DNA of 64,000 bases from Baylisascaris procyonis (lineage: Eukaryota; Nematoda; Chromadorea; Rhabditida; Ascarididae), in assembly GCA_037389465.1 (NCBI GenBank), contig JAZARR010000174.1:1674001-1738000 (forward strand), in the 5' to 3' direction. Below, in pieces: positions 1 through 41,551 of this stretch. Both the position numbers and the translations under genes were made by a program. Every line of letters starts with the position of its first letter. Positions within the stretch are counted from its first letter, which is position 1. The notes under the pieces are model-generated. The model did not search any database. It was not told the origin of the DNA and was given only the letters and a program-made list of their open reading frames with translations.

Positions 1-14
1 TGTTGTCAAAAAGA

Positions 15-86
15 CTCCCCGGCCGGGAATCGAACCCGGGTCCCGCACGTGGCAGGCGCGTATACTCACCACTATACTACTGATGA
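15..86 (-). pseudogene. tRNA-Asp-derived copy with GCC (Gly) anticodon, intact anticodon stem
   Basis: The anticodon loop reads CTGCCAC instead of CTGTCAC, giving anticodon GCC, which reads Gly codons, while the stem CGCGC/GTGCG is kept. The acceptor 5' strand is TCATCAG, giving two mismatches with CCGGGGA. The other copies of this monomer at 4,258-4,262 and 6,289-6,293 have the normal GTC, so this is a private change. A tRNA-Asp body with a Gly anticodon is unlikely to be charged with glycine correctly, so I treat it as a pseudogene. Confidence 0.55.
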
Positions 87-734
87 CATCGGTTTTCTGA
101 ACTTTCCAACGACTTTAGATTTCTTGTCGGATCAAAGACTCAATGAATGTTGTAACACTCCCGGAAGGGAATGGAACCCGCGTCTCGCACGTGACAAGCG
201 CGGATACTCACCACTATACTACCGAGGACACAGGTTTTCTGAACTTGATATCAACTCTAGATTTTCATCGCAAGAAAGGGTGAATGAATGTAGTCAAGAA
301 AACTATTCGGCCGGGAAATGAAGCGGTTCTCGCACGCGACAGGCGCGGATACTCACCACTATACTACCGAGGAGACAGGTTTAATGAACTTTCCATCGTC
401 TATAGACTTCTTGTCTGATCGAAGGGTAAATGAATGTTGTCAAAAAGACTCCCCGGCCGGGAATCGAACCCGGTTCTCGCACGTGACAGGCGCGGATACT
501 CACAACTATCCTACTGAGGACACAGGTTTTCTGAACTTTCCAACGACTTTAGATTTCTTGTCGGACCAAAGACTCAATGAATGTTGTAACACTACCCGGA
601 AGGGAATGGAACCCGCGTCTCGCACGTGACAAGCTGGGATACTCACCGCCATACTACCGAGGGCACAGGTTTTCTGAGCTTGCCATCAACTTTAGACTTC
701 TTGTCTCATCGAAGGGTAAATGAATGTTGTAACA

Positions 735-806
735 CTCCCCGGCCGGGAATCGAACCCGGGTCTCGCACGTGACAGGCGCGGATACTCACCACTATACTAC
801 CGAGGA
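735..806 (-). tRNA. tRNA-Asp-GTC: tRNA-Asp(GTC), consensus copy, no T-run terminator
   Basis: Exact consensus 72-mer: acceptor TCCTCGG pairs with CCGGGGA (one T-G), anticodon stem CGCGC pairs with GTGCG, loop CTGTCAC, T stem CCGGG pairs with CCCGG, discriminator G. The 3' flank on the minus strand reads GTGTTAC, so no Pol III stop is present here. Confidence 0.8.
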
Positions 807-4720: not shown

Positions 4721-6751
4721 GAGGACACAGGTTTTCTGAACTTTCCATCGTCTTAAGATTTCATGTCTGATCGAAGGGTAAATGAAAGTTGTAACACTCC
4801 CCGGCCGGGAATCGAACCCGGGTCTCGCACGTGACAGGCGCGGATACTCACCACTATACTACCGAGGACACAGGTTTTCTGAACTTTCCATCGCCTTTAG
4901 GTTTCTTGTCCGATCGAAGGGCAAATGAATGTTGTCAAAAAGACTCCCCGGCCGGGAATCGAACCCGGGTCTCGAACGTGACAGGCGCGTATACTCACCA
5001 CTATACTACTGATGACACCGGTTTTCTGAACTTTCCAACGACTTTAGATTTCTTGTCGGATCAAAGACTCAATGAATGTTGTAACACTCCCCGGAAGGAA
5101 ATGGAACCCGCGTCTCGCACGTGACAAGCTGGGATACTCACCGCCATACTACCGAGGACACAGGTTTTCTGAGCTTGCCATCAACTTTAGATTTCTTGTC
5201 TGATGGAAGGGTAAATGAATGTTGTCAAAAAGACTCACCGGCCGCGAGTCGAAACCGGGTCTCGCACGTGCCAGGCGCGGATACTCACCACTATACTACC
5301 GAGGACACAGGTTTTCTGAACTTTCCATCGTCTTTAGATTTCTTGTCTGATCGAAGGGTAAATGAATGGTGTCAAAAAGACTCCCCGGCCGGGAATCGAA
5401 CCCGGGTCTCGCACGTGACAGGCTCGGATACTCACCGCTATACTACCGAGGACACAGGTTTTCTGAACTTGCCATCAACTTTAGATTTCTCATCGCATGA
5501 AACGGTGAATGAATGTAGTCAAGAAAACTATTCGGACGGGAATTGAACCCGGGTCTCGCACGTGACAGGCGCGTATACTCACCACTACACTACTGATGAC
5601 ACCGGTTTTCTGAACTTTCCAACGACTTTAGATTTCTTGTCGGACCAAACACTCAATGAATGTTGTAACACTCCCCGGAAGGGAATGGAACCCGCGTGTC
5701 GCACGTAAAAGGCCGGGATACTCACTGCCATACCACCGAGGACACAGGTTTTCTGAACTTTCCATCGTCTTTAGGTTTCTTGTCCGATCGAAGGGCAAAT
5801 GAATGTTGTCAAAAAGACTCCCCGGCCGGGAATCGAACCCGGGTCTCGAACGTGACAGGCGCGTATACTCACCACTATACTACTGATGACACCGGTTTTC
5901 TGAACTTTCCAACGACTTTAGATTTCTTGTCGGATCAAAGACTCAATGAATGTTGTAACACTCCCCGGAAGGGAATGGAACCCGCGTCTCGCACGTGGCA
6001 AGCTGGGATAGTCACCGCCATACTACCGAGGACACAGGTTTTCTGAGCTTGCCTTGAACTTTAGATTTCTTGTCTGATCGAAGGGTAAATGAATGTTGTC
6101 AAAAAGACTCCCCGGCGGGGAGTCGAACCCGGGTCTCGCACGTGACAGGCGCGGATACTCACCACTATGCTACCGAGGACACAGGTTTTCTGAACTTTCC
6201 ATCGTCTTTAGATTTCTTGTCTGATCGGAGGGTAAATGAATGTTGTCAAAAAGACTCCCCGGCCGGGAATCGAACCCGGGTCCCGCACGTGACAGGCGCG
6301 TATACTCACCACTATACTACTGATGACATCGGTTTTCTGAACTTTCCAACGACTTTAGATTTCTTGTCGGATCAAAGACTCAATGAATGTTGTAACACTC
6401 CCGGAAGGGAATGGAACCCGCGTCTCGCACGTGACAAGCGCGGATACTCACCACTATACTACCGAGGACACAGGTTTTCTGAACTTGATATCAACTCTAG
6501 ATTTTCATCGCAAGAAAGGGTGAATGAATGTAGTCAAGAAAACTATTCGGCCGGGAAATGAAGCGGTTCTCGCACGCGACAGGCGCGGATACTCACCACT
6601 ATCCTACTGAGGACACAGGTTTTCTGAACTTTCCAACGACTTTAGATTTCTTGTCGGACCAAAGACTCAATGAATGTTGTAACACTACCCGGAAGGGAAT
6701 GGAACCCGCGTCTCGCACGTGACAAGCTGGGATACTCACCGCCATACTACC
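4721..6751. repeat. 2,031-bp tandem duplication within the array, copy b
   Basis: Second copy of the fourteen-monomer block. It overlaps the start of the 13.7-kb higher-order repeat, so the small duplication and the large one are nested or successive events. The copy ends where the spacer changes from gaggaca to gagggca near 6,750. Confidence 0.8.
4797..4868 (-). tRNA. tRNA-Asp-GTC: tRNA-Asp(GTC), consensus copy, no T-run terminator
   Basis: Exact consensus cloverleaf; duplicate of the copy at 2766, with the gtaaca-type flank conserved. Confidence 0.8.
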
Positions 6752-9133
6752 GAGGGCACAGGTTTTCTGAGCTTGCCATCAACTTTAGACTTCTTGTCTC
6801 ATCGAAGGGTAAATGAATGTTGTAACACTCCCCGGCCGGGAATCGAACCCGGGTCTCGTACGTGACATGCGCGGATACTCACCACTATACTACCGAGGAC
6901 ACAGGTTTTCTGAACTTTCCTTCGTCTTTAGATTTCTTGTCTGATCGAAGGGTAAATGAATGTTGTCAAAAAGACCCCCAGCCGGGAATCGAACCCGGGT
7001 CTCGCACATGACAGGCGCGCATGCTCACCACTATACTACTGATGACACCGGTTTTCTGAACTTTCCAACGACTTTAGATTTCTTATCGGATGAAAGACTC
7101 AATGAATGTTGTAACACTCCCCGGAAGTAAATGGAACCCGCGTCTCGCACGTGACAAGCTGGGATACTCACCGCCATACTACCGAGGACACAGGTTTTCT
7201 GAGCTTGCCATCAACTTTAGATTTCTTGTCTGATCGAAGGGTAAATGAATGTTGTCAAAAGGACTCCCCGGCCGGGAGTCGAACACGGGTCTCGCACGTG
7301 ACAGGCGCGGATACTCACCACTATACTACCGAGGACACAGGTTTTCTGAACTTTCCATCGTCTTTAGATTTCTTGTCTGATCGAAGGGTAAATGAATGTT
7401 GTAACACTCCCGGAAGGGAATGGAACCCGCGTCTCGCACGTGACAAGCGCGGATACTCACCACTATACTACCGAGGACACAGGTTTTCTGAACTTGATAT
7501 CAACTCTAGATTTTCATCGCAAGAAAGGGTGAATGAATGTAGTCAAGAAAACTATTCGGCCGGGAAATGAAGCCGGTTCTCGCACGCGACAGGCGCGGAT
7601 ACTCACCACTATACTAGTGAGGACATAGGTTTTCTGAACTTTACAACGACTTTAGATTGCTTATGGGATCAAAGACTCAATGAATGTTGTAACACTCCCC
7701 GGAAGGGAATGGAACCCGCGTCTCGCACGTGACAAGCTGGGATACTCACCGCCATACTACCGAGGACACAGGTTTTCTGAGCTTCCCATCAACTTTAGAT
7801 TTCTTGCCTGATCGAAGGGTAAATGAATGCTGTCAAAAAGACTCCCCTGCCGGGAGTCGAACCCGGGTCTCGCACGTGACAGGCGCGGATACTCACCACT
7901 ATACTACCGAGGACACAGGTTTTCTGAACTTTGCATCGTCTTTAGATTTCTTGTCTCATCGAAGGGTAAATGAATGTTGTCAAAAATACTCCCCGGCCGG
8001 GAATCGAACCCGGGTCTCGCACGTGACAGGCGCGGATACTCACCACTATACTAACGAGGAGACAGGTTTAATGAACTTTCCATCGTCTATAGACTTCTTG
8101 TCTGATCGAAGGGTAAATGAATGTTGTCAAAAAGACTCCCCGGCCGGGAATCGAACCCGGTTCTCGCACGTGACGGGCGCGGATACTCACAACTATCCTA
8201 CTGAGGACACAGGTTTTCTGAACTTTCCAACGACTTTAGATTTCTTGTCGGACCAAAGACTCAATGAATGTTGTAACACTACCCGGAAGGGAATGGAACC
8301 CGCGTCTCGCACGTGACAGGCTGGGATACTCACCGCCATACTACCGAGGGCACAGGTTTTCTGAGCTTGCCATCAACTTTAGATTTCTTGTCTCATCGAA
8401 GGGTAAATAAATGTTGTAACACTCCCCGGCCGGGAATCGAACCCGGGTTTCGCACGTGACAATCGCGGATACTCACCACTATACTACCGAGGACACAGGT
8501 TTTCTGAACTTTCCATCTTCTTTAGATTTCTTGTCTGATCGAAGGGTAAATGAATGTTGTAACACTCCGCGGCCGGGAATCGAACCCGGGTCTCGCACAT
8601 GACAGGCGCGGATACTCACCACTATACTAACGAGGACACAGGTTTCCTGAACTTTCCAACGACTTTAGATTTCTTGTCGGACCAAACACTCAATGAATGT
8701 TGTAACACTCCCCGGAAGGGAATGGAACCCGCGTATCGCACGTGACAGGCCGGGATACTCACTGCCATACCACCGAGGACACAGGTTTTCTGAGCTTGCC
8801 ATCAACCTTAGATTTCTTGTCTCATCGAAGGGTAAATGAAAGTTGTAACACTCCCCGGCCGGAAATCGAACCGGGGTCTCGCACGTGACAGCCGCGGATA
8901 CTCACCACTATACTACTGATGACACCGGTTTTCTGAACTTTCCAACGACTTTAGATTTCTTATCGGATCAAAGACTCAATGAATGTTGTAACACTCCCCG
9001 GAAGTAAATGGAACCCGGGTCTCGCACGTGACAGGCGCGGATACTCACCACTATACTACCGAGGACACAGGTTTTCTGAACTTTCCATCGTCTTTAGATT
9101 TCCTGTCTGATCGAAGGGTAAATGAATGTTGTC

Positions 9134-9138
9134 AAAAA
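9134..9138 (-). terminator. Pol III T5 terminator of type copy
   Basis: On the minus strand TCTTTTTGAC starts two bases after the discriminator of the tRNA at 9141-9212. Runs of four or more T on the coding strand end Pol III transcription. The same element sits 3-7 bases beyond the 3' end of every copy marked as having a terminator. Confidence 0.8.
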
Positions 9139-9151
9139 GACTCCCCGGCCG

Positions 9152-9162
9152 GGAATCGAACC
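9152..9162 (-). promoter_or_regulatory. Pol III B box of type copy
   Basis: GGTTCGATTCC is a perfect match to the B-box consensus GGTTCGANTCC. In the ggaagggaatgg monomer class it becomes GGTTCCATTCC, losing the conserved purine, which should weaken TFIIIC binding. Confidence 0.8.
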
Positions 9163-9194
9163 CGGGTCTCGCACGTGACAGGCGCGGATACTCA

Positions 9195-9205
9195 CCACTA
9201 TACTA
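9195..9205 (-). promoter_or_regulatory. Pol III A box of type copy
   Basis: TAGTATAGTGG at tRNA positions 8-18 fits the internal type 2 Pol III promoter A box. It is altered to TAGTATGGCGG in the cgccatacta monomer class. Confidence 0.75.
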
Positions 9206-10164
9206 CCGAGGACACAGGTTTTCTGAACTTTCCATCGTCTTTAGATTTCTTGTCTGATCGAAGGGTAAATGAATGTTGTGAAAAAGACTCCGCGGCCGGG
9301 AATCGAACCCCGGTCTCGCACGTGACAGGCGCGGATACTCACCACTATACTACCGAGGACACAGGTTTTCTGAACTTTCCATCGTCTTTAGATTTCTTGT
9401 TTGATCGAAGGGCAAATGAATGTTGTCAAAAAGACTCCCCGGCCGGGAATCGAACCCGGGTCTCGCACGTGACAAGCTGGGATACTCACCGCCATACTAC
9501 CGAGGACACAGGTTTTCTGAGCTTGCCATCAACTTTAGATTTCTTGCCTGATCGAAGGGTAAATGAATGCTGTCAAAAAGACTCCCCTGCCGGGAGTCGA
9601 ACCCGGGTCTCGCACGTGACAGGCGCGGATACTCACCACTATACTACCGAGGACACAGGTTTTCTGAGCTTGCCATCAACTTTAGATTTCTTGCCTGATC
9701 GAAGGGTAAATGAATGCTGTCAAAAAGATTCCCCTGCCGGGAGTCGAACCCGGGTCTCGCACGTGACAGGCGCGGATACTCACCACCATACTACCGAGGA
9801 CACAGGTTATCTGAACTTTCCATCGTCTTTAGATTTCTTGTCTGATCGAAGGGTAAATGAATGTTGTCAAAAATACTCCCCGCCCGGGAATCGAACCCGG
9901 GTCTCGCACGTGACAAGCTGGGATACTCACCGCCATACTACCGAGGACACAGGTTTTCTGAGCTTGCCATCAACTTTAGATTTCTTGTCTGATCGAAGCG
10001 TAAATCAATGTTCTCAAAAAGACCCCCGGCCGGGAGTCGAACCCGGGTCTCGCACGTGACAGGCGCGGATACTCACCACTATACTAACGAGGACACAGGT
10101 TTTCTGAACTTTCCATCGTCTTCAGATTTCTTGTCTGATCGAAGGGTAAATGAATGTTGTAACA

Positions 10165-10236
10165 CTCCCCGGCCGGGAATCGAACCCGGGTCTCGCACGT
10201 GACAGGCGCGGATACTCACCACTATACTACCGAGGA
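10165..10236 (-). tRNA. tRNA-Asp-GTC: tRNA-Asp(GTC), consensus copy, no T-run terminator
   Basis: Exact consensus cloverleaf with gtaaca-type flank. It recurs at 23833 in the second large block. Confidence 0.8.
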
Positions 10237-11616
10237 CACAGGTTTTCTGTACTTGCCATCAACTTTAGATTTCTCATCGCATGAAAGGGTGAATGAATGT
10301 AGTCAAGAAAACTGTTCGGCCGGGAATTGAACCCGGGTCTCGCACGTGACAGGCGCGTATACTCACCACTATACTACTGATGACACCGGTTTTCTGAACT
10401 TTCCAACGACTTTAGATTTCTTATCGCATCAAAGACTCAATGAATGTTGTAACACTCCCCGGAAGGGAATGGAACCCGCGTCTCGCACGTGACAGGCGCG
10501 GATACTCACCACTATACTACCGAGGACACAGGTTTTCTGTACTTGCCATCAACTTTAGATTTCTCATCGCATGAAAGGGTGAATGAATGTGGTCAAGAAA
10601 ACTATTCGGCCGGGAATTGAACCCGGGTCTCGCACGTGACAGGCGCGTATACTCACCACTATACTACTGATGACACCGGTTTTCTGAACTTTCCAACGAC
10701 TTTAGATTTCTTATCGGATCAAAGACTCAATGAATGTTGTAACACTCCCCGGAAGGGAATGGAACACGCGTCTCGCACGTGGCAAGCTGGGATACTCACC
10801 GCCATACTACCGAGGACACAGGTTTTCTGAGCTTGCCTTCAACTTTAGATTTCTTGTCTGATCGAAGGGTAAATGAATGTTGTCAAAAAGACTCCCCGGC
10901 CGGGAATCGAACCCGGGTCTCGCACGTGACAGGCGCGTATACTCACCACTATACTACTGATGACACCGGTTTTCTGAACTTTCCAACGACTTTAGATTTC
11001 TTGTCGGATCAAAGACTCAATGAATGTTGTAACACTCCCGGAAGGGAATGGAACCCGCGTCTCGCACGTGACAAGCGCGGATACTCACCACTATACTACC
11101 GAGGACACAGGTTTTCTGAACTTGATTTCAACTCTAGATTTTCATCGCAAGAAAGGGTGAATGAATGTAGTCAAGAAAACTATTCGGCCGGGAAATGAAG
11201 CCGGTTCTCGCACGTGACAGGCGCGGATACTCACCACTATACTAGTGAGGACATAGGTTTTCTGAACTTTCCAACGACTTTAGATTTCTTATCGGATCAA
11301 AGACTCAATGAATGTTGTAACACTCCCCGGAAGGGAATGGAACCCGCGTCTCGCACGTGGCAAGCTGGGATACTCACCGCCATACTACCGAGGACACAGG
11401 TTTTCTGAGCTTGCCTTCAACTTTAGATTTCTTGTCTGATCGAAGGGTAAATGAATGTTGTCAAAAAGGCTCCCCGGCGGGGAGTCGAACCCGGGTCTCG
11501 CACGTGACAGGCGCGGATACTCACCACTATACTACCGAGGACACAGGTTTTCTGAACTTTCCATCGTCTTTAGATTTCTTGTCTGATCGAAGGGTAAATG
11601 AATGTTGTCAAAAAGA

Positions 11617-11688
11617 CTCCCCGGCCGGGAATCGAACCCGGGTCTCGCACGTGACAGGCGCGGATACTCACCACTATACTACCGAGGA
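11617..11688 (-). tRNA. tRNA-Asp-GTC: tRNA-Asp(GTC), consensus copy with terminator
   Basis: Exact consensus; T5 stop at 11614-11610. It recurs at 25285. Confidence 0.85.
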
Positions 11689-12053
11689 CACAGGTTTTCT
11701 GTACTTGCCATCAACTTTAGATTTCTCATCGCATGAAAGGGTGAATGAATGTAGTCAAGAAAACTATTCGGCCGGGAATTGAACCCGGGTCTCGCACGTG
11801 ACAGGCGCGTATACTCACCACTATACTACTGATGACACCGGTTTTCTGAACTTTCCAACGACTTTAGATTTCTTATCGGATCAAAGACTCAATGAATGTT
11901 GTAACACTCCCCGGAAGTAAATGGAACCCGCGTCTCGCACGTGACAAGCTGGGATACTCACCGCCATACTACCGAGGACACAGGTTTTCTGAGCTTGCCA
12001 TCAACTTTAGATTTCTTGTCTGATCGAAGGGTAAATGAATGTTGTCAAAAAGA

Positions 12054-12125
12054 CTCCCCGGCCGGGAATCGAACCCGGGTCTCGCACGTGACAGGCGCGG
12101 ATACTCACCACTATACTACCGAGGA
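12054..12125 (-). tRNA. tRNA-Asp-GTC: tRNA-Asp(GTC), consensus copy with terminator
   Basis: First of three consecutive perfect copies at 147-bp spacing (12054, 12201, 12348); T5 stop at 12051-12047. It recurs at 25722. Confidence 0.85.
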
Positions 12126-12200
12126 CACAGGTTTTCTGAACTTTCCATCGTCTTTAGATTTCCTGTCTGATCGAAGGGTAAATGAATGTTGTCAAAAAGA

Positions 12201-12272
12201 CTCCCCGGCCGGGAATCGAACCCGGGTCTCGCACGTGACAGGCGCGGATACTCACCACTATACTACCGAGGA
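12201..12272 (-). tRNA. tRNA-Asp-GTC: tRNA-Asp(GTC), consensus copy with terminator
   Basis: Exact consensus; T5 stop at 12198-12194. It recurs at 25869. Confidence 0.85.
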
Positions 12273-12347
12273 CACAGGTTTTCTGAACTTTCCATCGTCT
12301 TTAGATTTCTTGTTTGATCGAAGGGTAAATGAATGTTGTCAAAAAGA

Positions 12348-12419
12348 CTCCCCGGCCGGGAATCGAACCCGGGTCTCGCACGTGACAGGCGCGGATACTC
12401 ACCACTATACTACCGAGGA
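12348..12419 (-). tRNA. tRNA-Asp-GTC: tRNA-Asp(GTC), consensus copy with terminator
   Basis: Exact consensus; T5 stop at 12345-12341. It recurs at 26016. Confidence 0.85.
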
Positions 12420-12930
12420 CACAGGTTTTCTGAACTTTCCATCGTCTTTAGATTTCTTGTCTGATCGAAGGGTAAATGAATGCTGTCAAAAAGACTCCCC
12501 TGCCGGGAGTCGAACCCGGGTCTCGCACGTGACAGGCGCGGATACTCACCACTATACTACCGAGGACACAGGTTATCCGAACTTTCCATCGTCTTTAGAT
12601 TTCTTGTCTGATCGAAGGGTAAATGAATGTTGTCAAAAATACTCCCCGCCCGGGAATCGAACCCGGGTCTCGCACGTGACAAGCTGGGATACTCACCGCC
12701 ATACTACCGAGGACACAGGTTTTCTGAGCTTGCCATCAACCTTAGATTTCTTGTCTGATCGAAGCGTAAATCAATGTTCTCAAAAAGACCCCCGGCCGGG
12801 AGTCGAACCCGGGTCTCGCACGTGACAGGCGCGGATGCTCACCACTATACTAACGAGGACACAGGTTTTCTGAACTTTCCATCGTCTTTAGATTTCTTGT
12901 CTGATCGAAGGGTAAATGAATGTTGTAACA

Positions 12931-13002
12931 CTCCCCGGCCGGGAATCGAACCCGGGTCTCGCACGTGACAGGCGCGGATACTCACCACTATACTACCGAG
13001 GA
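12931..13002 (-). tRNA. tRNA-Asp-GTC: tRNA-Asp(GTC), consensus copy, no T-run terminator
   Basis: Exact consensus, gtaaca-type flank. It lies in a run of four monomers (12,789-13,288) where no T-run separates neighbouring tRNAs; the next T5 downstream is at 12,786-12,782. It recurs at 26599. Confidence 0.8.
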
Positions 13003-13216
13003 CACAGGTTTTCTGAACTTTCCATCGTCTTTAGATTTCTTGTCTGATCGAAGGGTAAATGAATGTTGTAACACTCCCCGGCCGGGAATCGAACCCGGGT
13101 CTCGCACCTGACAGGCGCGGATACTCACCACTATACTAACGAGGACACAGGTTTTCTGAACTTTCCATCGTCTTTAGATTTCTTGTCTGATCGAAGGGTA
13201 AATGAATGTTGTAACA

Positions 13217-13288
13217 CTCCCCGGCCGGGAATCGAACCCGGGTCTCGCACGTGACAGGCGCGGATACTCACCACTATACTACCGAGGA
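13217..13288 (-). tRNA. tRNA-Asp-GTC: tRNA-Asp(GTC), consensus copy, no T-run terminator
   Basis: Exact consensus, gtaaca-type flank; the promoter-proximal member of the terminatorless run 12,789-13,288. It recurs at 26885. Confidence 0.8.
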
Positions 13289-13943
13289 CACAGGTTTTCT
13301 GTACTTGCCATCAACTTTAGATTTCTCATCGCATGAAAGGGTGAATGAATGTAGTCAAGAAAACTGTTCGGCCGGGAATTGAACCCGGGTCTCGCACGTG
13401 ACAGGCGCGTATACTCACCACTATACTACTGATGACACCGGTTTTCTGAACTTTCCAACGACTTTAGATTTCTTATCGCATCAAAGACTCAATGAATGTT
13501 GTAACACTCCCCGGAAGGGAATGGAACCCGCGTCTCGCACGTGACAGGCGCGGATACTCACCACTATACTACCGAGGACACGGGTTTTCTGTACTTGCCA
13601 TCAACTTTAGATTTCTCATCGCATGAAAGGGTGAATGAATGTAGTCAAGAAAACTATTCGGCCGGGAATTGAACCCGGGTCTCGCACGTGACAGGCGCGT
13701 ATACTCACCACTATACTACTGATGACACCGGTTTTCTGAACTTTCCAAAGACTTTAGATTTCTTATCGGATCAAAGACTCAATGAATGTTGTAACACTCC
13801 CCGGAAGGGAATGGAACCCGCGTCTCGCACGTGGCAAGCTGGGATACTCACCGCCATACTACCGAGGACACAGGTTTTCTGAGCTTGCCTTCAACTTTAG
13901 ATTTCTTGTCTGATCGAAGGGTAAATGAATGTTGTCAAAAAGA

Positions 13944-14015
13944 CTCCCCGGCCGGGAATCGAACCCGGGTCTCGCACGTGACAGGCGCGGATACTCACCA
14001 CTATACTACCGAGGA
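13944..14015 (-). tRNA. tRNA-Asp-GTC: tRNA-Asp(GTC), consensus copy with terminator
   Basis: Exact consensus; T5 stop at 13941-13937. It recurs at 27612. The 3,644-bp partner near 17588 has one change (ggcgtgg). Confidence 0.85.
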
Positions 14016-14670
14016 CACAGGTTTTCTGAACTTTTCATCGTCTTTAGATTTCTTGTCTGATCGAAGGGTAAATGAATGTTGTCAAAAAGACTCCCCGGCC
14101 GGGAATCGAACCCGGGTCTCGCACGTGACAGGCGCGTATACTCACCACTATACTACTGATGACACCGGTTTTCTGAACTTTCCAACGACTTTAGATTTCT
14201 TATCGCATCAAAGACTCAATGAATGTTGTAACACTCCCCGGAAGGGAATGGAACCCGCGTCTCGCACGTGACAGGCGCGGATACTCACCACTATACTACC
14301 GAGGACACAGGTTTTCTGTACTTGCCATCAACTTTAGATTTCTCATCGCATGATAGGGTGAATGAATGTAGTCAAGAAAACTATTCGGCCGGGAATTGAA
14401 CCCGGGTCTCGCACCTGACAGGCGCGTATACTCACCACTATACTACTGATGACACCGGTTTTCTGAACTTTCCAACGACTTTAGATTTCTTATCGGATCA
14501 AAGACTCAATGAATGTTGTAACACTCCCCGGAAGGGAATGGAACCCGCGTCTCGCACGTGGCAAGCTGGGATACTCACCGCCATACTACCGAGGACACAG
14601 GTTTTCTGAGCTTGCCTTCAACTTTAGATTTCTTGTCTGATCGAAGGGTAAATGAATGTTGTCAAAAAGA

Positions 14671-14742
14671 CTCCCCGGCCGGGAATCGAACCCGGGTCTC
14701 GCACGTGACAGGCGCGGATACTCACCACTATACTACCGAGGA
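14671..14742 (-). tRNA. tRNA-Asp-GTC: tRNA-Asp(GTC), consensus copy with terminator
   Basis: Exact consensus; T5 stop at 14668-14664. Identical partners at 18315, 28339 and 31983. Confidence 0.85.
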
Positions 14743-14817
14743 CACAGGTTTTCTGAACTTTTCATCGTCTTTAGATTTCTTGTCTGATCGAAGGTTCAAT
14801 GAATGTTGTCAAAAAGA

Positions 14818-14889
14818 CTCCCCGGCCGGGAATCGAACCCGGGTCTCGCACGTGACAGGCGCGGATACTCACCACTATACTACCGAGGA
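14818..14889 (-). tRNA. tRNA-Asp-GTC: tRNA-Asp(GTC), consensus copy with terminator
   Basis: Exact consensus; T5 stop at 14815-14811. Partners at 18462, 28486 and 32130. The spacer to its left carries the private change aaggttcaat. Confidence 0.85.
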
Positions 14890-17800: not shown

Positions 17801-18314
17801 TGATGACACCGGTTTTCTGAACTTTCCAACGACTTTAGATTTCTTATCGCATCAAAGACTCAATGAATGTTGTAACACTCCCCGGAAGGGAATGGAACCC
17901 GCGTCTCGCACGTGACAGGCGCGGATACTCACCACTATACTACCGAGGACACAGGTTTTCTGTACTTGCCATCAACTTTAGATTTCTCATCGCATGATAG
18001 GGTGAATGAATGTAGTCAAGAAAACTATTCGGCCGGGAATTGAACCCGGGTCTCGCACGTGACAGGCGCGTATACTCACCACTATACTACTGATGACACC
18101 GGTTTTCTGAACTTTCCAACGACTTTAGATTTCTTATCGGATCAAAGACTCAATGAATGTTGTAACACTCCCCGGAAGGGAATGGAACCCGCGTCTCGCA
18201 CGTGGCAAGCTGGGATACTCACCGCCATACTACCGAGGACACAGGTTTTCTGAGCTTGCCTTCAACTTTAGATTTCTTGTCTGATCGAAGGGTAAATGAA
18301 TGTTGTCAAAAAGA

Positions 18315-23832: not shown

Positions 23833-23904
23833 CTCCCCGGCCGGGAATCGAACCCGGGTCTCGCACGTGACAGGCGCGGATACTCACCACTATACTACCG
23901 AGGA
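23833..23904 (-). tRNA. tRNA-Asp-GTC: tRNA-Asp(GTC), consensus copy, no T-run terminator
   Basis: Exact consensus, gtaaca-type flank. Block 2 partner of 10165; the spacers on both sides carry block 2 differences. Confidence 0.8.
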
Positions 23905-25284: not shown

Positions 25285-25356
25285 CTCCCCGGCCGGGAAT
25301 CGAACCCGGGTCTCGCACGTGACAGGCGCGGATACTCACCACTATACTACCGAGGA
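25285..25356 (-). tRNA. tRNA-Asp-GTC: tRNA-Asp(GTC), consensus copy with terminator
   Basis: Exact consensus; T5 stop at 25282-25278. Block 2 partner of 11617. Confidence 0.85.
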
Positions 25357-25721
25357 CACAGGTTTTCTGTACTTGCCATCAACTTTAGATTTCTCATCGC
25401 ATGAAAGGGTGAATGAATGTAGTCAAGAAAACTATTCGGCCGGGAATTGAACCCGGGTCTCGCACGTGACAGGCGCGTATACTCACCACTATACTACTGA
25501 TGACACCGGTTTTCTGAACTTTCCAACGACTTTAGATTTCTTATCGGATCAAAGACTCAATGAATGTTGTAACACTCCCCGGAAGTAAATGGAACCCGCG
25601 TCTCGCACGTGACAAGCTGGGATACTCACCGCCATACTACCGAGGACACAGGTTTTCTGAGCTTGCCATCAACTTTAGATTTCTTGTCTGATCGAAGGGT
25701 AAATGAATGTTGTCAAAAAGA

Positions 25722-25793
25722 CTCCCCGGCCGGGAATCGAACCCGGGTCTCGCACGTGACAGGCGCGGATACTCACCACTATACTACCGAGGA
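25722..25793 (-). tRNA. tRNA-Asp-GTC: tRNA-Asp(GTC), consensus copy with terminator
   Basis: Exact consensus; T5 stop at 25719-25715. Block 2 partner of 12054, first of three consecutive perfect copies. Confidence 0.85.
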
Positions 25794-25868
25794 CACAGGT
25801 TTTCTGAACTTTCCATCGTCTTTAGATTTCCTGTCTGATCGAAGGGTAAATGAATGTTGTCAAAAAGA

Positions 25869-25940
25869 CTCCCCGGCCGGGAATCGAACCCGGGTCTCGC
25901 ACGTGACAGGCGCGGATACTCACCACTATACTACCGAGGA
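25869..25940 (-). tRNA. tRNA-Asp-GTC: tRNA-Asp(GTC), consensus copy with terminator
   Basis: Exact consensus; T5 stop at 25866-25862. Block 2 partner of 12201. Confidence 0.85.
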
Positions 25941-26015
25941 CACAGGTTTTCTGAACTTTCCATCGTCTTTAGATTTCTTGTTTGATCGAAGGGTAAATGA
26001 ATGTTGTCAAAAAGA

Positions 26016-26087
26016 CTCCCCGGCCGGGAATCGAACCCGGGTCTCGCACGTGACAGGCGCGGATACTCACCACTATACTACCGAGGA
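26016..26087 (-). tRNA. tRNA-Asp-GTC: tRNA-Asp(GTC), consensus copy with terminator
   Basis: Exact consensus; T5 stop at 26013-26009. Block 2 partner of 12348. Confidence 0.85.
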
Positions 26088-26598
26088 CACAGGTTTTCTG
26101 AACTTTCCATCGTCTTTAGATTTCTTGTCTGATCGAAGGGTAAATGAATGCTGTCAAAAAGACTCCCCTGCCGGGAGTCGAACCCGGGTCTCGCACGTGA
26201 CAGGCGCGGATACTCACCACTATACTACCGAGGACACAGGTTATCCGAACTTTCCATCGTCTTTAGATTTCTTGTCTGATCGAAGGGTAAATGAATGTTG
26301 TCAAAAATACTCCCCGCCCGGGAATCGAACCCGGGTCTCGCACGTGACAAGCTGGGATACTCACCGCCATACTACCGAGGACACAGGTTTTCTGAGCTTG
26401 CCATCAACCTTAGATTTCTTGTCTGATCGAAGCGTAAATCAATGTTCTCAAAAAGACCCCCGGCCGGGAGTCGAACCCGGGTCTCGCACGTGACAGGCGC
26501 GGATGCTCACCACTATACTAACGAGGACACAGGTTTTCTGAACTTTCCATCGTCTTTAGATTTCTTGTCTGATCGAAGGGTAAATGAATGTTGTAACA

Positions 26599-26670
26599 CT
26601 CCCCGGCCGGGAATCGAACCCGGGTCTCGCACGTGACAGGCGCGGATACTCACCACTATACTACCGAGGA
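26599..26670 (-). tRNA. tRNA-Asp-GTC: tRNA-Asp(GTC), consensus copy, no T-run terminator
   Basis: Exact consensus, gtaaca-type flank. Block 2 partner of 12931, in the terminatorless run 26,457-26,956. Confidence 0.8.
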
Positions 26671-26884
26671 CACAGGTTTTCTGAACTTTCCATCGTCTTT
26701 AGATTTCTTGTCTGATCGAAGGGTAAATGAATGTTGTAACACTCCCCGGCCGGGAATCGAACCCGGGTCTCGCACCTGACAGGCGCGGATACTCACCACT
26801 ATACTAACGAGGACACAGGTTTTCTGAACTTTCCATCGTCTTTAGATTTCTTGTCTGATCGAAGGGTAAATGAATGTTGTAACA

Positions 26885-26956
26885 CTCCCCGGCCGGGAAT
26901 CGAACCCGGGTCTCGCACGTGACAGGCGCGGATACTCACCACTATACTACCGAGGA
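26885..26956 (-). tRNA. tRNA-Asp-GTC: tRNA-Asp(GTC), consensus copy, no T-run terminator
   Basis: Exact consensus, gtaaca-type flank. Block 2 partner of 13217. Confidence 0.8.
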
Positions 26957-27611
26957 CACAGGTTTTCTGTACTTGCCATCAACTTTAGATTTCTCATCGC
27001 ATGAAAGGGTGAATGAATGTAGTCAAGAAAACTGTTCGGCCGGGAATTGAACCCGGGTCTCGCACGTGACAGGCGCGTATACTCACCACTATACTACTGA
27101 TGACACCGGTTTTCTGAACTTTCCAACGACTTTAGATTTCTTATCGCATCAAAGACTCAATGAATGTTGTAACACTCCCCGGAAGGGAATGGAACCCGCG
27201 TCTCGCACGTGACAGGCGCGGATACTCACCACTATACTACCGAGGACACGGGTTTTCTGTACTTGCCATCAACTTTAGATTTCTCATCGCATGAAAGGGT
27301 GAATGAATGTAGTCAAGAAAACTATTCGGCCGGGAATTGAACCCGGGTCTCGCACGTGACAGGCGCGTATACTCACCACTATACTACTGATGACACCGGT
27401 TTTCTGAACTTTCCAAAGACTTTAGATTTCTTATCGGATCAAAGACTCAATGAATGTTGTAACACTCCCCGGAAGGGAATGGAACCCGCGTCTCGCACGT
27501 GGCAAGCTGGGATACTCACCGCCATACTACCGAGGACACAGGTTTTCTGAGCTTGCCTTCAACTTTAGATTTCTTGTCTGATCGAAGGGTAAATGAATGT
27601 TGTCAAAAAGA

Positions 27612-27683
27612 CTCCCCGGCCGGGAATCGAACCCGGGTCTCGCACGTGACAGGCGCGGATACTCACCACTATACTACCGAGGA
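27612..27683 (-). tRNA. tRNA-Asp-GTC: tRNA-Asp(GTC), consensus copy with terminator
   Basis: Exact consensus; T5 stop at 27609-27605. Block 2 partner of 13944. Confidence 0.85.
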
Positions 27684-28338
27684 CACAGGTTTTCTGAACT
27701 TTTCATCGTCTTTAGATTTCTTGTCTGATCGAAGGGTAAATGAATGTTGTCAAAAAGACTCCCCGGCCGGGAATCGAACCCGGGTCTCGCACGTGACAGG
27801 CGCGTATACTCACCACTATACTACTGATGACACCGGTTTTCTGAACTTTCCAACGACTTTAGATTTCTTATCGCATCAAAGACTCAATGAATGTTGTAAC
27901 ACTCCCCGGAAGGGAATGGAACCCGCGTCTCGCACGTGACAGGCGCGGATACTCACCACTATACTACCGAGGACACAGGTTTTCTGTACTTGCCATCAAC
28001 TTTAGATTTCTCATCGCATGATAGGGTGAATGAATGTAGTCAAGAAAACTATTCGGCCGGGAATTGAACCCGGGTCTCGCACCTGACAGGCGCGTATACT
28101 CACCACTATACTACTGATGACACCGGTTTTCTGAACTTTCCAACGACTTTAGATTTCTTATCGGATCAAAGACTCAATGAATGTTGTAACACTCCCCGGA
28201 AGGGAATGGAACCCGCGTCTCGCACGTGGCAAGCTGGGATACTCACCGCCATACTACCGAGGACACAGGTTTTCTGAGCTTGCCTTCAACTTTAGATTTC
28301 TTGTCTGATCGAAGGGTAAATGAATGTTGTCAAAAAGA

Positions 28339-28410
28339 CTCCCCGGCCGGGAATCGAACCCGGGTCTCGCACGTGACAGGCGCGGATACTCACCACTATA
28401 CTACCGAGGA
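28339..28410 (-). tRNA. tRNA-Asp-GTC: tRNA-Asp(GTC), consensus copy with terminator
   Basis: Exact consensus; T5 stop at 28336-28332. Block 2 partner of 14671. Confidence 0.85.
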
Positions 28411-28485
28411 CACAGGTTTTCTGAACTTTTCATCGTCTTTAGATTTCTTGTCTGATCGAAGGTTCAATGAATGTTGTCAAAAAGA

Positions 28486-28557
28486 CTCCCCGGCCGGGAA
28501 TCGAACCCGGGTCTCGCACGTGACAGGCGCGGATACTCACCACTATACTACCGAGGA
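28486..28557 (-). tRNA. tRNA-Asp-GTC: tRNA-Asp(GTC), consensus copy with terminator
   Basis: Exact consensus; T5 stop at 28483-28479. Block 2 partner of 14818. Confidence 0.85.
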
Positions 28558-31500
28558 CACAGGTTTTCTGTACTTGCCATCAACTTTAGATTTCTCATCG
28601 CATGAAAGGGTGAATGAATGTAGTCAAGAATACTATTCGGCCGGGAATTGAACCCGGGTCTCGCACGTGACAGGCGCGTATACTCACCACTATACTACTG
28701 ATGACACCGGTTTTCTGAACTTTCCATCGTCTTTAGATTTCTTGTCTGATCGAAGGGTAAATGAATGTTGTCAAAAAGACTCCCCGGCCGGGAATCGAAC
28801 CCGGGTCTCGCACGTGACAGGCGCGGATACTCACCACTAGGCTACCGAGGACACAGGTTTTGTGAACTTTCCATCGTCTTTAGATTTCTTGTCTGATCGA
28901 AGGGGAAACGAATGTTGTCAAAAAGACTCCCCGGCCGGGAATCGAACCCGGGTCTCGCACGTGACAGGCGCGGACACTCACCACTATACTACCGAGGACA
29001 CAGGTTTTGTGAACTTGCCATCAACTTTAGATTTCTCATCGGATGAAAGGGTGAATGAATGTAGTCAAGAAAACTATTCGGCCGGGAATTGAACCCGGTT
29101 CTCGCACGCGACAGGCGCGGATACTCACCACTATACTAGTGAGGATATAGGTTTTCAGAACTTTCCAACGACTTTAGATTTCTTATCGGATCAAAGACTG
29201 AATGAATGTTGTAAGAACACTCCCCGGACGGGAATGGAACCCGGGTCTCGCACGTGACAGACGCGGATACTCACCACTATACTACCGAGGACACAGGTTT
29301 TCTGAACTTTCCATCGTCTTTAGATTTCTTGTCGGACCAAAGACTCAATGAATGTTGTAACACTCCCCGGAAGGGAATGGAACCCGCGTCTCGCACGTGA
29401 CAAGCTGGGATACTCACCGCCATACTACCGAGGACACAGGTTTTCTGAGCTTGCCATCAACTTTAGATTTCTCATCGCATGAAAGGGTGAATGAATGTAG
29501 TCAAGAAAACTATTCGGCCGGGAATTGAACCCGGGTCTCGCACGTGACAGGCGCGTATACTCACCACTATACTACCGAGGACACAGGTTTTCTGAACTTT
29601 CCATCGTCTTTAGATTTCTTGTCTGATCGAAGGGTAAATGAATGTTGTGACACTCCCCGGCGGGGAATCGAACCCGGGTCTCGCACGTGACAGGCGCGGA
29701 TACTCACCGCAATACTACCGAGGACACAGGTTTTCTGAACTTTCCATAGAGTTTAGATTTCTTTTCTGATCGAAGGGTAAATCAATGTTGTCAAAAAGAC
29801 TCCCCGGCCGGGAATGGAACCCGCGTCTCGCACGTGACAGGCTGGGACACTCACCGCCATACTACCGAGGACACAGGTTTTCTGAACTTTCCATCGACTT
29901 TAGATTTCTTGTCTGATCGAAGGGTAAATGAATGTTGTCAAAAAGACTCCCCGGCCGGGAATCGAACCCAGGTCTCGCACGTGACACTCCGGATACTCAC
30001 AACTATACTACCGAGGACACAGGTTTTCTGAACTTGCCATCAACTTTAGATTTTCATCGCATGAAAGGGTGAATGAATGTTGTCAAGAAAACTGTTCGGC
30101 CGATAATTGAACCCGGTTCTCGCGCGCGACAGGCGCGGATAGTCACCGCAATACTACCGAGGACACAGGTTTTCTGAGCATGCCATCAACTTTAGATTTC
30201 TTGTCTCATCGAAGGGTAAATGAATGTTGTCAAAAAGACTCCCCGGCCGGGAATCGAACCCGGTTCTCGCACATGACAGGCGCGGATACTCACCACTATC
30301 CTGCTGAGGACACAGGTTTTCTGAACTTTCCAACGACTTTAGATTTCTTGTCGGACCAAAGACTCAATGAATGTTGTAACACTCCCCGGAAGCGAATGGA
30401 ACCCGCGTCTCGCACGTGACAGGCGCGGATACTCACCACTATACTACCGAGGACACAGGTTTTCTGAAATTTCCATCGTCTTTAGATTTCTTGTCTGATC
30501 GAAGAGTAAATGAATGTTGTCAAAAAGACTCCCCGGCCGGGAATCGAACCCGGGTTTCGCACGTGACAGGCGCGGATACTCACCACTATACTACCGAGGA
30601 AACAGGTTTTCTGTACTTGCCATCAACTTTAGATTTCTCATCGCATGAAAGGGTGAATGAATGTAGTCAAGAAAACTGTTCGGCCGGGAATTGAACCCGG
30701 GTCTCGCACGTGACAGGCGCGTATACTCACCACTATACTACTGATGACACCGGTTTTCTGAACTTTCCAACGACTTTAGATTTCTTATCGCATCAAAGAC
30801 TCAATGAATGTTGTAACACTCCCCGGAAGGGAATGGAACCCGCGTCTCGCACGTGACAGGCGCGGATACTCACCACTATACTACCGAGGACACAGGTTTT
30901 CTGTACTTGCCATCAACTTTAGATTTCTCATCGCATGAAAGGGTGAATGAATGTAGTCAAGAAAACTATTCGGCCAGGAATTGAACCCGGGTCTCGCACG
31001 TGACAGGCGCGTATACTCACCACTATACTACTGATGACACCGGTTTTCTGAACTTTCCAAAGACTTTAGATTTCTTATCGGATCAAAGACTCAATGAATG
31101 TTGTAACACTCCCCGGAAGGGAATGGAACCCGCGTCTCGCACGTGGCAAGCTGGGATACTCACCGCCATACTACCGAGGACACAGGTTTTCTGAGCTTGC
31201 CTTCAACTTTAGATTTCTTGTCTGATCGAAGGGTAAATGAATGTTGTCAAAAAGACTCCCCGGCCGGGAATCGAACCCGGGTCTCGCACGTGACAGGCGT
31301 GGATACTCACCACTATACTACCGAGGACACAGGTTTTCTGAACTTTTCATCGTCTTTAGATTTCTTGTCTGATCGAAGGGTAAATGAATGTTGTCAAAAA
31401 GACTCCCCGGCCGGGAATCGAACCCGGGTCTCGCACGTGACAGGCGCGTATACTCACCACTATACTACTGATGACACCGGTTTTCTGAACTTTCCAACGA

Positions 31501-31982
31501 CTTTAGATTTCTTATCGCATCAAAGACTCAATGAATGTTGTAACACTCCCCGGAAGGGAATGGAACCCGCGTCTCGCACGTGACAGGCGCGGATACTCAC
31601 CACTATACTACCGAGGACACAGGTTTTCTGTACTTGCCATCAACTTTAGATTTCTCATCGCATGATAGGGTGAATGAATGTAGTCAAGAAAACTATTCGG
31701 CCGGGAATTGAACCCGGGTCTCGCACGTGACAGGCGCGTATACTCACCACTATACTACTGATGACACCGGTTTTCTGAACTTTCCAACGACTTTAGATTT
31801 CTTATCGGATCAAAGACTCAATGAATGTTGTAACACTCCCCGGAAGGGAATGGAACCCGCGTCTCGCACGTGGCAAGCTGGGATACTCACCGCCATACTA
31901 CCGAGGACACAGGTTTTCTGAGCTTGCCTTCAACTTTAGATTTCTTGTCTGATCGAAGGGTAAATGAATGTTGTCAAAAAGA

Positions 31983-32054
31983 CTCCCCGGCCGGGAATCG
32001 AACCCGGGTCTCGCACGTGACAGGCGCGGATACTCACCACTATACTACCGAGGA
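31983..32054 (-). tRNA. tRNA-Asp-GTC: tRNA-Asp(GTC), consensus copy with terminator
   Basis: Exact consensus; T5 stop at 31980-31976. Block 2 partner of 18315. Confidence 0.85.
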
Positions 32055-32129
32055 CACAGGTTTTCTGAACTTTTCATCGTCTTTAGATTTCTTGTCTGAT
32101 CGAAGGTTCAATGAATGTTGTCAAAAAGA

Positions 32130-32201
32130 CTCCCCGGCCGGGAATCGAACCCGGGTCTCGCACGTGACAGGCGCGGATACTCACCACTATACTACCGAGG
32201 A
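32130..32201 (-). tRNA. tRNA-Asp-GTC: tRNA-Asp(GTC), consensus copy with terminator
   Basis: Exact consensus; T5 stop at 32127-32123. Block 2 partner of 18462. Confidence 0.85.
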
Positions 32202-33182
32202 CACAGGTTTTCTGTACTTGCCATCAACTTTAGATTTCTCATCGCATGAAAGGGTGAATGAATGTAGTCAAGAATACTATTCGGCCGGGAATTGAACCCG
32301 GGTCTCGCACGTGACAGGCGCGTATACTCACCATTATACTACTGATGACACCGGTTTTCTGAACTTTCCATCGTCTTTAGATTTCTTGTCTGATCGAAGG
32401 GTAAATGAATGTTGTCAAAAAGACTCCCCGGCCGGGAATCGAACCCGGGTCTCGCACGTGACAGGCGCGGATACTCACCACTAGGCTACCGAGGACACAG
32501 GTTTTCTGAACTTTCCATCGTCTTTAGATTTCTTGTCTGATCGAAGGGGAAACGAATGTTGTCAAAAAGACTCCCCGGCCGGGAATCGAACCCGGGTCTC
32601 GCACGTGACAGGCGCGGACACTCACCACTATACTACCGAGGACACAGGTTTTGTGAACTTGCCATGAACTTTAGATTTCTCATCGGATGAAAGGGTGAAT
32701 GAATGTAGTCAAGAAAACTATTCGGCCGGGAATTGAACCCGGTTCTCGCACGCGACAGGCGCGGATACTCACCACTATACTAGTGAGGACATAGGTTTTC
32801 AGAACTTTCCAACGACTTTAGATTTCTTATCGGATCAAAGACTGAATGAATGTTGTAAGAACACTCCCCGGACGGGAATGGAACCCGGGTCTCGCACGTG
32901 ACAGACGCGGATACTCACCACTATACTACCGAGGACACAGGTTTTCTGAACTTTCCATCGTCTTTAGATTTCTTGTCGGACCAAAGACTCAATGAATGTT
33001 GTAACACTCCCGGAAGGGAATGGAACCCGCGTCTCGCACGTGACAAGCGCGGATACTCACCACTATACTACTGATGACACCGGTTTTCTGAACTTTCCAA
33101 CGACTTTAGATTTCTTATCGGATCAAAGACTCAATGAATGTTGTAACACTCCCCGGAAGTAAATGGAACCCGCGTCTCGCAC

Positions 33183-38400: not shown

Positions 38401-40269
38401 AAAAATACTCCCCGGCGGGGAATCGAACCCGGGTTTCGCACGTGACAGGCGCGGATACTCACCTCCATACTACCGAGCACACAGGTTTTCTGAACTTTCC
38501 ATAGAGTTTAGATTTCTTTTCTGATCGAATGGTAAATGAATGTTGTCAAAAAGACTCCCCGGCCGGGAATCGAACCCGGGTCTCGCACGTGAAACTCGCG
38601 GATACTCACCGCCATACTACCGAGCACACAGGTTTTCTGAACTTTCCATAGGGTTTAGATTTCTTTTCTGATCGAAGGGTAAATGAATGTTGTCAAAAAG
38701 AATCCCCGGCCTGGAATCGAACCCGGGTCTCGCACGTGACACTCCGGATACTCACAACTATACTACCGAGGACACAGGTTTTTTGAACTTTAGATCGTCT
38801 TTAGATTTCTTGTCTGATCGAAGGGTAAATGAATGTTATCAAAAAGACTCCCCGGCCGGCAATCGAACCCGGGTCTCGCGCGTGACAGGCGCGGATACTC
38901 ATCACTATACTAACGAGGACACAGGTTTTCTGAGCTTGCCATCAACTTTAGATTTCTTGTCTGATCGAAGGGCAAATGAATGTTGTCAAAAAGACTCCCC
39001 GGTCGGGAATCGAACCCGGGTCTCGCACGTGACAGGCGCGGATACTCACCACGATACTACCGAGGACACAGGTTTTCTGAACTTTCCATCGTCTTTAGAT
39101 TTCTTGTCTGATCGAAGGGTAAGTGAATGTTGTCAAAGAGACTCCCCGGCCGGGGATCGAACCCGGGTCTCGCACGTGACAGGCGCGGATACTCACCACT
39201 ATACTACCGAGGACACAGGCTTTTTGAACTTGCCATCAACTTTATATTTCTCACCGCATGAAAACGTGAATGAATGTAGTCAAGAAAACTATTCGGCCGG
39301 AATTGGACCCGGGTCTCGCACCCGACAGGCGCGGATACTCACCGTAATACTACCGAGGACACAGGTTTTCTGAGCTTGCCATCAACTTTAGATTTCTTAT
39401 CCGATGAAAGACTCAATGAATGTTGTAAAAACACGCCCCGGAATGGAATGGAACCCGCGTCTCGCACGTGACAGGCTGTGATACTCACCACTATACTACC
39501 GAGGACACAGGTTTTCTGAACTTTAAATCGACTTTAGATTTCTTGTCTGATCGAAGGGTAAATGAACGTTGTCAAAAAGACTCCCCGGCCGGGAATCGAA
39601 CCCGGGTCTCGGACGTGACAGGCGCGGATACTCACCTCCATACTACCGAGCACACAGGTTTTCTGAACTTTCCATCGACTTTAGATTTCTTTTCTGATCG
39701 AAGGGTAAATGAATGTTGTAAGAACACTCCCCGGAAGGGAATGGAACCCACGTCTCGCACGTGACAGGCGCGGATACTCATCACTATACTAACGAGGACA
39801 CAGGTTTTCTGAACTTGGCATCAACTTTAGATTTCTCATCGCATGAAAGGGTGAATGAATGTAGTCAAGAAAACTACTCGGCCGGGAATTGGACCCGGGT
39901 GTCGCACCCGACAGGCCCGGATACTCACCGTAATACTACCGAGGACACAGGTTTTCTGAGCTTGCCATCAACTTTAGATTTCTTATCCGATCAAAGACTC
40001 AATGAATGTTGTAAAAACACTCCCCGGAATGGAATGGAACCCGCGTCTCGCACGTGACAGGCTGTGATACTCACCGCCATACTACCGAGGACACAGGTTT
40101 TCTGAACTTGCCATCGACTTTAGATTTCTTATCGGATCAACCGTCGAATGAATGTTCTCAAAAAGACCCCGGCCGGGAATCGAACCCGGGTCTCGCACGT
40201 GACACTCCGGATACTCACCACAATACTACCGAGGACACAGGTTTTCTGAGCTTGCCATCAACTTAAGAT

Positions 40270-41551
40270 TTCTTGTCTCATCGAACGGTAAATGAATGTT
40301 GTCAAAAAGACTCCCCGGTCGCGAATCGAATCCGGGTCTCGCACGTGACAGGCGCGGATACTAACCACTATACTACCGAGGACACAGGTTTTCTGAACTT
40401 GCCGTCAACTTTAGATTTCTTATCGGGTCGTCGGGTACATGAATGCTGTCAAAAAGACTTCCCAGCCGGGAATGGATCCCAGATCTCTCAAGTGACAGGC
40501 TCGGATACTCACCACTATATTACCGAGGACACAGGTTTTCCGAACTTTCCATCGACTTTAGATTTCTTATCTGATCCAAGGGTAAATGAATGTTCTCAAA
40601 AAGACACCCCGGCCGTTAATCGAACCCGGGTCTCGAACGTGACAGGCGCGGATACTCACAACTATATTACCGAGGACACAGGTTTTCTGAACTTGCCATC
40701 GACTTTAGATTTCTTATCGGGTTGTAGGGTACATGAATGTTCTCAAAAAGTCTCCCCGGCCGGGAATCGAACCCGGGTTTCGGACGTGACAGGCGCGGAT
40801 ACTCACCACTATACTTCCGAGGACACAGGTTTTCTGACCTTGCCATCGACTTTAGATTTCTTATCGGGTCGTAGGGTACTTGAATGTTGTCAAAAAGACT
40901 TCCCAGCCGGGAATCGATCCCGGGTCTCGCGCGTGACAGGCGCGGATACTCACCACTATACTTCCGAGGACATGAGTTCTCGTGCCTTGCAGGATGAGTT
41001 TAGATTCCATATCGGATCGACGGGTGAACGAATGTTGTGAAAAAGACTCCCGGCGTTAATCTAAGCCGGGCCTCGCACGTGACATGCGTCGATACTCACC
41101 GCTGTACTGCCGAGGACTTCAGTACATGTTCCTTTGCCAGTGAGTCCTCATCAGATCGAACTGTAATAATGAATATTGTCAAAAACACTCCCGATATGGG
41201 AGTGGAACCCTGTCTCGCACGTGACCGGCGCGGATTTTCAACACTGTAACTCCGAAGACTTGAGTGCTCGTGACCTTATCTATGAGATTAGATTCCTTGT
41301 CGGATCGACGGGTGAACGAATATTGCCAAAAGGACTCCCCGGCCTGGAATCGAACCCGGTCTGGCACGTGACAGGTGCGGATACCCATCGCCATACTACC
41401 GGGGATTGATTACTTCTTCTTGCCGAGAGGTTTAGATTCCTCATCAGATCGTTTGTGTAAATGAATATTGTCAAGAATACTCCCCGCCCGGGAGTGGGAC
41501 CCTGATCCCGCATATGACAGGCACGGATACTCGCCACTGTGATACGGAATA
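40270..41551 (-). repeat. Decayed terminal monomers of the array
   Basis: The last nine or so monomers diverge step by step from the consensus. Spacers change (cttatcgggtcg, then gagttctcgtgcc, then cttcttcttgccgagagg) and tRNA bodies accumulate changes; the last recognisable one at about 41,480-41,551 has the T arm gggagtgggaccctg and D arm gatacggaata. The anticodon complement gtgaca or atgaca can still be recognised in most. This is the usual pattern at the edge of a tandem array where homogenisation fails. Confidence 0.8.

Follow-up and report, generated by a model that had tools for sequence, protein, structure and literature searches.

Tandem arrays of tRNA genes are known from Entamoeba, where almost all tRNA genes are described as arrayed, in units that hold up to five tRNA genes with short tandem repeats between them (PMC2652664). 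The array of Baylisascaris procyonis described here, in contrast, has one gene per unit and, counting tRNA-Asp alone, leaves six copies dispersed elsewhere in the genome. A closer counterpart is reported from Phytophthora infestans, where a single chromosome carries 271 tRNA-Cys(GCA) copies with a unit length of 513 nt and the authors invoke growth by unequal crossing-over (PMC9584435). Both cases involve one tRNA type, one locus and hundreds of copies. According to the same description, some single-chromosome arrays of Phytophthora, such as that of tRNA-Leu, consist of nearly identical repeats, while dimeric and trimeric arrays are more diverse (PMC9584435); the nematode array differs in that its monomer classes, some intact and some degenerate, are intermingled.

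In maize, the satellite named tRNASAT_ZM in Repbase forms a 91.95-kb tRNA satellite array on chr4L (PMC10335936). Like the array studied here, which at 74.1 kb is of comparable length, it is a long, tRNA-named satellite found in a single place, although the host is a plant and the likeness is drawn from the published description rather than from sequence. The cnidarian Hydractinia shares with our case an animal host and is reported to carry tandem arrays in which tRNAs number from tens to hundreds (PMC11067881). These, however, are described as including tRNAs of all 20 amino acids as well as other RNAs, whereas here tRNA-Asp alone was counted, and its copies show a mean difference of 0.16 of the aligned columns when gaps are counted. 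In Nematostella and teleosts, tDNAs are reported to form clusters of fifty or more (PMC2888827), and the C. elegans genome is given as having 659 tRNA genes (PMC3715494). Among the matches listed in the open-licence PMC literature, there was no tRNA array from a nematode. The consulted text of the Heterorhabditis genome paper gives 254 tRNA genes and does not mention arrays, and in that of the Baylisascaris and Meloidogyne hapla genome papers tRNAs appear in methods or as mitochondrial tRNAs only.

The first-pass annotation had put the locus forward as a strong candidate for an undescribed system. This is too strong, since satellite-scale tRNA arrays have been published for maize, Hydractinia and Phytophthora, besides Entamoeba; because comparable arrays are thus on record from a few other organisms, the array is not unprecedented. 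What sets it apart is that intact and dead monomers are mixed in it with unusual clarity.

The window analysed here is a stretch of 64,000 nucleotides (C172:1674001-1738000) from a genome of 272.8 Mb in 293 contigs. Its features are as follows, in window positions unless the contig is named.

1..41551, minus strand: tRNA-Asp satellite, the right-hand 41.6 kb of the array, with 286 of 510 monomers and the tRNA on the minus strand (Tandem Repeats Finder and nhmmer)
C172:1641429-1674000: left part of the tRNA-Asp satellite, outside the window
735..806, minus strand: example of an exact tRNA-Asp(GTC), 72/72 against five dispersed genes
11323-11394 and 3203-3274: examples of anticodon-shifted copies
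5658..19183, no strand: 93-monomer block, copy one, 13,526 bp
19326..32851, no strand: 93-monomer block, copy two, with one monomer (19184-19325) between the copies
40886..41551, minus strand: decayed right end of the array, the last five profile matches, the final one partial
41552..64000, no strand: right flank without array sequence, no Pfam family above the cut-off in four ORFs tested

Tandem Repeats Finder reported a repeat at window positions 1-41405 with a period of 147, 284.6 copies and 84% matches. An iterated nhmmer profile found 286 monomers in 1-41551, all on one strand, the final one ending at 41551. These numbers agree with the initial estimate of about 285 copies over 41,551 bp, and the period with the 147-bp monomer named there. 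The tRNA had been assigned to the minus strand, where all 197 tRNAs predicted in the window by ARAGORN do lie, and the array had been said to leave the window at its left edge. When an extra 50 kb was fetched leftwards, the profile search placed the whole array at C172:1641429-1715551, 74.1 kb in all, 32.6 kb of it left of the window. There were 511 profile matches in a single orientation, yielding 510 usable monomers after one match, projected to just 14 bases, was dropped. No further monomers were found by the profile search in the adjoining sequence on the left (17.4 kb) or on the right (22.4 kb). The array is internal to a contig of 2,339,891 bases, with non-array sequence on both sides. 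The start-to-start spacing of monomers is most commonly 147 bp (277 times), followed by 143 bp (123 times), and the monomers, mostly 147 or 143 bp long, average 145.3 bp; the 510 monomers of the array comprise 286 distinct sequences. As expected of a satellite, the locus is a long head-to-tail array of one monomer, with all 510 units, or 74.1 kb, on one strand.

The consensus of the array contains a tRNA-Asp(GTC) on the minus strand that is identical at 72/72 bases to five dispersed genes, L001-L005, as a satellite derived from a tRNA gene should be. The flanks of these five genes are unrelated to the array spacer; a sixth dispersed gene, L006, has two base differences. The genome contains 57 exact copies of the tRNA, 52 of them in the array and five outside, and 188 copies at up to three mismatches, 182 in the array and six outside. 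A 37-base piece of the spacer had 402 matches in the genome at up to three mismatches, and all 402 fell inside the array. As far as this 37-mer reaches, the spacer points to a single-locus satellite. Since the piece had no match outside the array at this threshold, we rejected a SINE or transposon reading. A source of the spacer was sought in the dispersed tRNA-Asp loci and the array flanks, yielding only matches of chance size (10-14 bases). Nematodes of this kind are holocentric, which bears on any centromere reading of the array.

Clustering of the 510 aligned monomers produced 34 clusters, smaller groups included, among them classes A (178 monomers), B (85), C (81), D (78), E (23) and F (13). 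The classes are irregularly interleaved, DBCA being the commonest four-letter class word (27 occurrences). Compared with the dispersed genes, and with gaps not counted as differences, the class consensus tRNAs carry no changes in A and D, one in E, five in F, seven in B and nine in C. The first-pass annotation had described a complete tRNA-Asp in every monomer. This does not hold: two of the four main classes, B and C, with 166 of the 510 monomers, are degenerate at the consensus level, while A and D have a perfect consensus tRNA, and exact 72-nt copies make up 34 of the 286 monomers in the window. In the class B consensus, three of the seven acceptor-stem pairs are broken, and the class C consensus has an altered B box and no T-run. 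Termination by RNA polymerase III needs four or more Ts; the class D consensus has just three after the tRNA, and that of class A, which also has an A box and a B box, continues with TCTTTTT, a run of five Ts.

An array maintained as a bank of functional genes should have an intact tRNA in most units. Across the whole array, however, the tRNA is exact in 52 of 510 monomers and within three changes of exact in 182 of 510. By the more lenient test of intactness that ARAGORN provides, there are 352 tRNAs in the array (314 Asp, 17 Gly, 10 Ala and 11 others), and those of the window comprise 183 Asp(GTC), 11 Gly(GCC), two Ala(GGC) and one Glu(TTC). The Rfam scan covered window positions 1-20000 and 40000-64000; the tRNA model exceeded its gathering score 92 times in the former, where 138 monomers start, and three times in the latter. 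Defined by the consensus forms of the boxes, a strict B box is present in 254 of the 510 monomers, a looser one in 312 and an A-box-like motif in 324; a run of four Ts precedes the monomer end in 310. The exact tRNA and such a run coincide in 31 of the 510: in 31 of the 52 exact copies, TTTT begins two bases past the tRNA, and the other 21 have no TTTT within 25 nt.

These counts bear on the possibility that the locus is an amplified functional one, similar to rDNA, which would supply much of the tRNA-Asp and in which selection would act on the number of intact copies and not on each copy. Most exact copies of the genome (52 of 57) and most copies at up to three mismatches (182 of 188) are indeed in the array, the class A consensus has both promoter boxes and the five Ts, TTTT follows more than half of the exact copies, the consensus tRNAs of A, D and E are conserved though their spacers have diverged, and exact tRNAs are somewhat commoner than exact spacers (see below). 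On the other hand, classes B and C are degenerate, 21 exact copies have no nearby TTTT, the anticodon and B box of class A vary as the spacer does, and the six dispersed genes could supply tRNA-Asp. We consider this reading unlikely. A further observation concerns the anticodon: classes A-D together count 422 monomers over the full array, and in these 30 tRNA-Asp bodies have the anticodon GCC and ten have GGC. If charged by AspRS, such copies could misread codons. A wider version of the functional reading, with an animal rDNA-like tRNA locus that would supply much tRNA-Asp under selection for the number of good copies while hundreds of degenerate ones are tolerated, a gene family turning into a satellite and GCC and GGC copies possibly causing mistranslation, seems rather doubtful to us.

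If the array is a satellite, its tRNA part should diverge like its spacer. Within classes, over 62 spacer columns with the indel-rich ends left out, the divergence of tRNA and spacer was 3.7 and 3.6% in A, 5.8 and 3.6% in B, 3.7 and 2.9% in C, 4.5 and 3.9% in D, 4.9 and 4.2% in E, and 4.6 and 5.2% in F. The shares of segregating sites in tRNA and spacer did not differ significantly in any of the six classes (Fisher p 0.11-0.86). In class A, the anticodon diverges by 3.6%, the B box by 3.4% and the spacer by 3.7%; in class D, the anticodon and the spacer both diverge by 3.8%, and the B box by 4.5%. The anticodon is less variable than the spacer in class B (0.8 vs 4.0%) and more variable in class C (11.8 vs 3.3%), and the B box diverges by 10% in class B, more than the spacer, and by 2.5% in class C. 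Copy-level purifying selection on the tRNA is thus not visible within classes, as expected of a satellite: none of the six classes reveals it, and the anticodons of A and D vary like the spacer.

The same B-box values bear on the proposal that the array is a chromosomal boundary or structural element, in which TFIIIC bound to the B boxes would organise chromatin independently of tRNA output. Such a role has been proposed for a tRNA repeat at human 1q23.3 (PMC4041453), and a strict B box survives in about half of the monomers (254 of 510, or 312 with the looser definition). Still, the B box has diverged to a similar extent as the spacer in A, C and D and faster than the spacer in B, and it is changed in the class C consensus. 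We regard this role as extremely improbable.

Several comparisons point the other way from copy-level neutrality. Pooled over classes, divergence is lower in the tRNA than in the spacer, both in the 475 inner monomers (7.0 vs 9.5%) and in the 35 edge monomers, the first 20 and the last 15, that were set apart (12.5 vs 18.5%). When each distinct monomer is counted once, exact tRNAs and exact spacers number 18 and 11 of 110 in class A (20.6 in a size-matched subsample), 5 and 0 of 35 in class D (5.9 in a size-matched subsample), 5 and 3 of 40 in class B, and 3 and 3 of 34 in class C. Copies without any change in the tRNA (52) outnumber those with one change (27). Together with the class B anticodon, the pooled divergence, the excess of exact copies and these last counts lean towards some constraint or conversion.

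Consensus sequences were also compared between classes, counting substitutions only. Classes A and D differ at 0/72 positions of the tRNA and 11/72 of the spacer (p = 0.0006), and both A and E and D and E differ at 1/72 and 9/67 positions, respectively (p = 0.0073 each); for the remaining 12 of the 15 pairs, tRNA and spacer did not differ significantly, the p values being uncorrected for 15 tests. Because the differences among A, D and E lie in the spacer and hardly in the tRNA, our reading is that the array passed through an older phase, when some lineages were maintained as genes, and is now in a second, when copies are drifting. A gene conversion confined to the tRNA could equally produce this pattern. 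Moreover, neutrality at the level of copies is compatible with selection that acts on how many good copies there are.

The anatomy of the array resembles that of a satellite growing by exchange, with diverged edges and local duplicates. The mean difference from the consensus is 0.202 in the first ten monomers and 0.162 in the last ten, compared to 0.042-0.126 in the other bins of ten. Monomers at the ends have no close relatives in the array, and those inside usually have a near-identical partner elsewhere in it. The largest duplication is the block of 93 monomers, the two copies of which have 10 differences in 13,526 bp, all of them inside 1.5 kb; smaller blocks, 8-18 monomers long, are repeated at different lags. 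The 13.5-kb internal duplication looks recent. Diverged edges and recurring blocks are the pattern expected from unequal exchange, and the clustering of the block differences may reflect a conversion tract or an effect of assembly.

Duplication in assembly could mimic such a block, present twice with differences in 1.5 kb only, and the array or its length could then be inflated artificially. However, the array lies inside a 2.34-Mb contig and is flanked on both sides, its 510 monomers include 286 distinct ones, its edges are graded, and more than 400 monomers would be left even without the second block. An artefact is therefore very unlikely.

Taken together, the locus is quite probably a single-locus satellite that has grown from one nuclear tRNA-Asp(GTC) gene, or from a few of them in a cluster, with copies that drift and dozens that are probably still transcribable. 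Either one gene or such a cluster would have been the founder, and a unit of ~75 bp of spacer and the 72-nt tRNA gene would have been multiplied in head-to-tail order, both through unequal exchange and through the duplication of multi-monomer blocks, as the anatomy of the array suggests. An older phase would have produced several monomer lineages with diverged spacers, the tRNA being retained in A, D and E but lost from B and C; this contrast suggests that the founders were once selected as genes. Later, copies would have drifted, with within-class variation in the tRNA about equal to that in the spacer. Some dozens of A-type copies appear to keep the internal promoter boxes and a T-run directly after the acceptor stem, and judging by these signals are probably transcribed by RNA polymerase III. 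The initial alternative had been between a functional locus and a satellite that arose from a tRNA gene. The satellite is favoured by the single-locus spacer (402/402), the decayed edges, the 13.5-kb duplication and the like divergence of tRNA and spacer, and of the functional locus there remains partial function, with 52 exact tRNAs. The array behaves as a satellite in which intact genes survive, rather than as a homogeneous set of ~500 genes.

The surroundings of the array and other parts of the genome provided some additional observations. The right flank has 11 ORFs of at least 100 aa, and none of the four tested against Pfam matched a family above the cut-off. Among ten ORFs tested from both flanks, the sole one above the cut-off is an exon of Mpp10, a ribosome biogenesis protein, in the left flank ~14 kb from the array (C172:1627229-1627555, or L009:3229-3555; 30.8 against a cut-off of 29.9 bits). 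By eye, the ORFs adjoining it resemble additional exons. Weaker matches of flank ORFs to Ac110_PIF, PmrD and LEM were below the Pfam cut-off. A perfect (TA)74 microsatellite was found by Tandem Repeats Finder at window positions 54935-55082.

Using the sequence of the nematode SL1 spliced leader as query, we found 981 exact sites genome-wide and none with the reversed control. SL1 copies are spaced ~6.57 kb apart at C78:125220-164639 and occur in pairs on other contigs, and those at C89:535277-551991 are ~1.11 kb apart; the SL1 loci L017 (C3) and L018 (C4) had no Rfam match at the gathering score. COX1 had 46 matches, on contigs C136, C195, C198, C219, C80, C81, C221 and C293. The translation of the C136 copy is nematode COX1: identity was 96% to the best match, 94% to a cluster labelled Rhabditida, 93% to both Litoditis and Caenorhabditis briggsae, and 91% to Ascaridia and Baylisascaris. 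Taken alone, these values lean weakly towards the Rhabditina and away from an ascarid. Several copies on large contigs have TAA or TAG stops, and three on C198 are ~30.5 kb apart, which suggests multiple insertions of mitochondrial DNA into the nuclear genome.

In the tRNA-Asp array of Baylisascaris, gene and satellite are found in one continuous array, with intact and dead classes side by side and the dispersed genes as a reference. These internal controls let the loss of selection on a multicopy tRNA gene be timed, and the array offers a test of whether a satellite can stay a source of tRNA.
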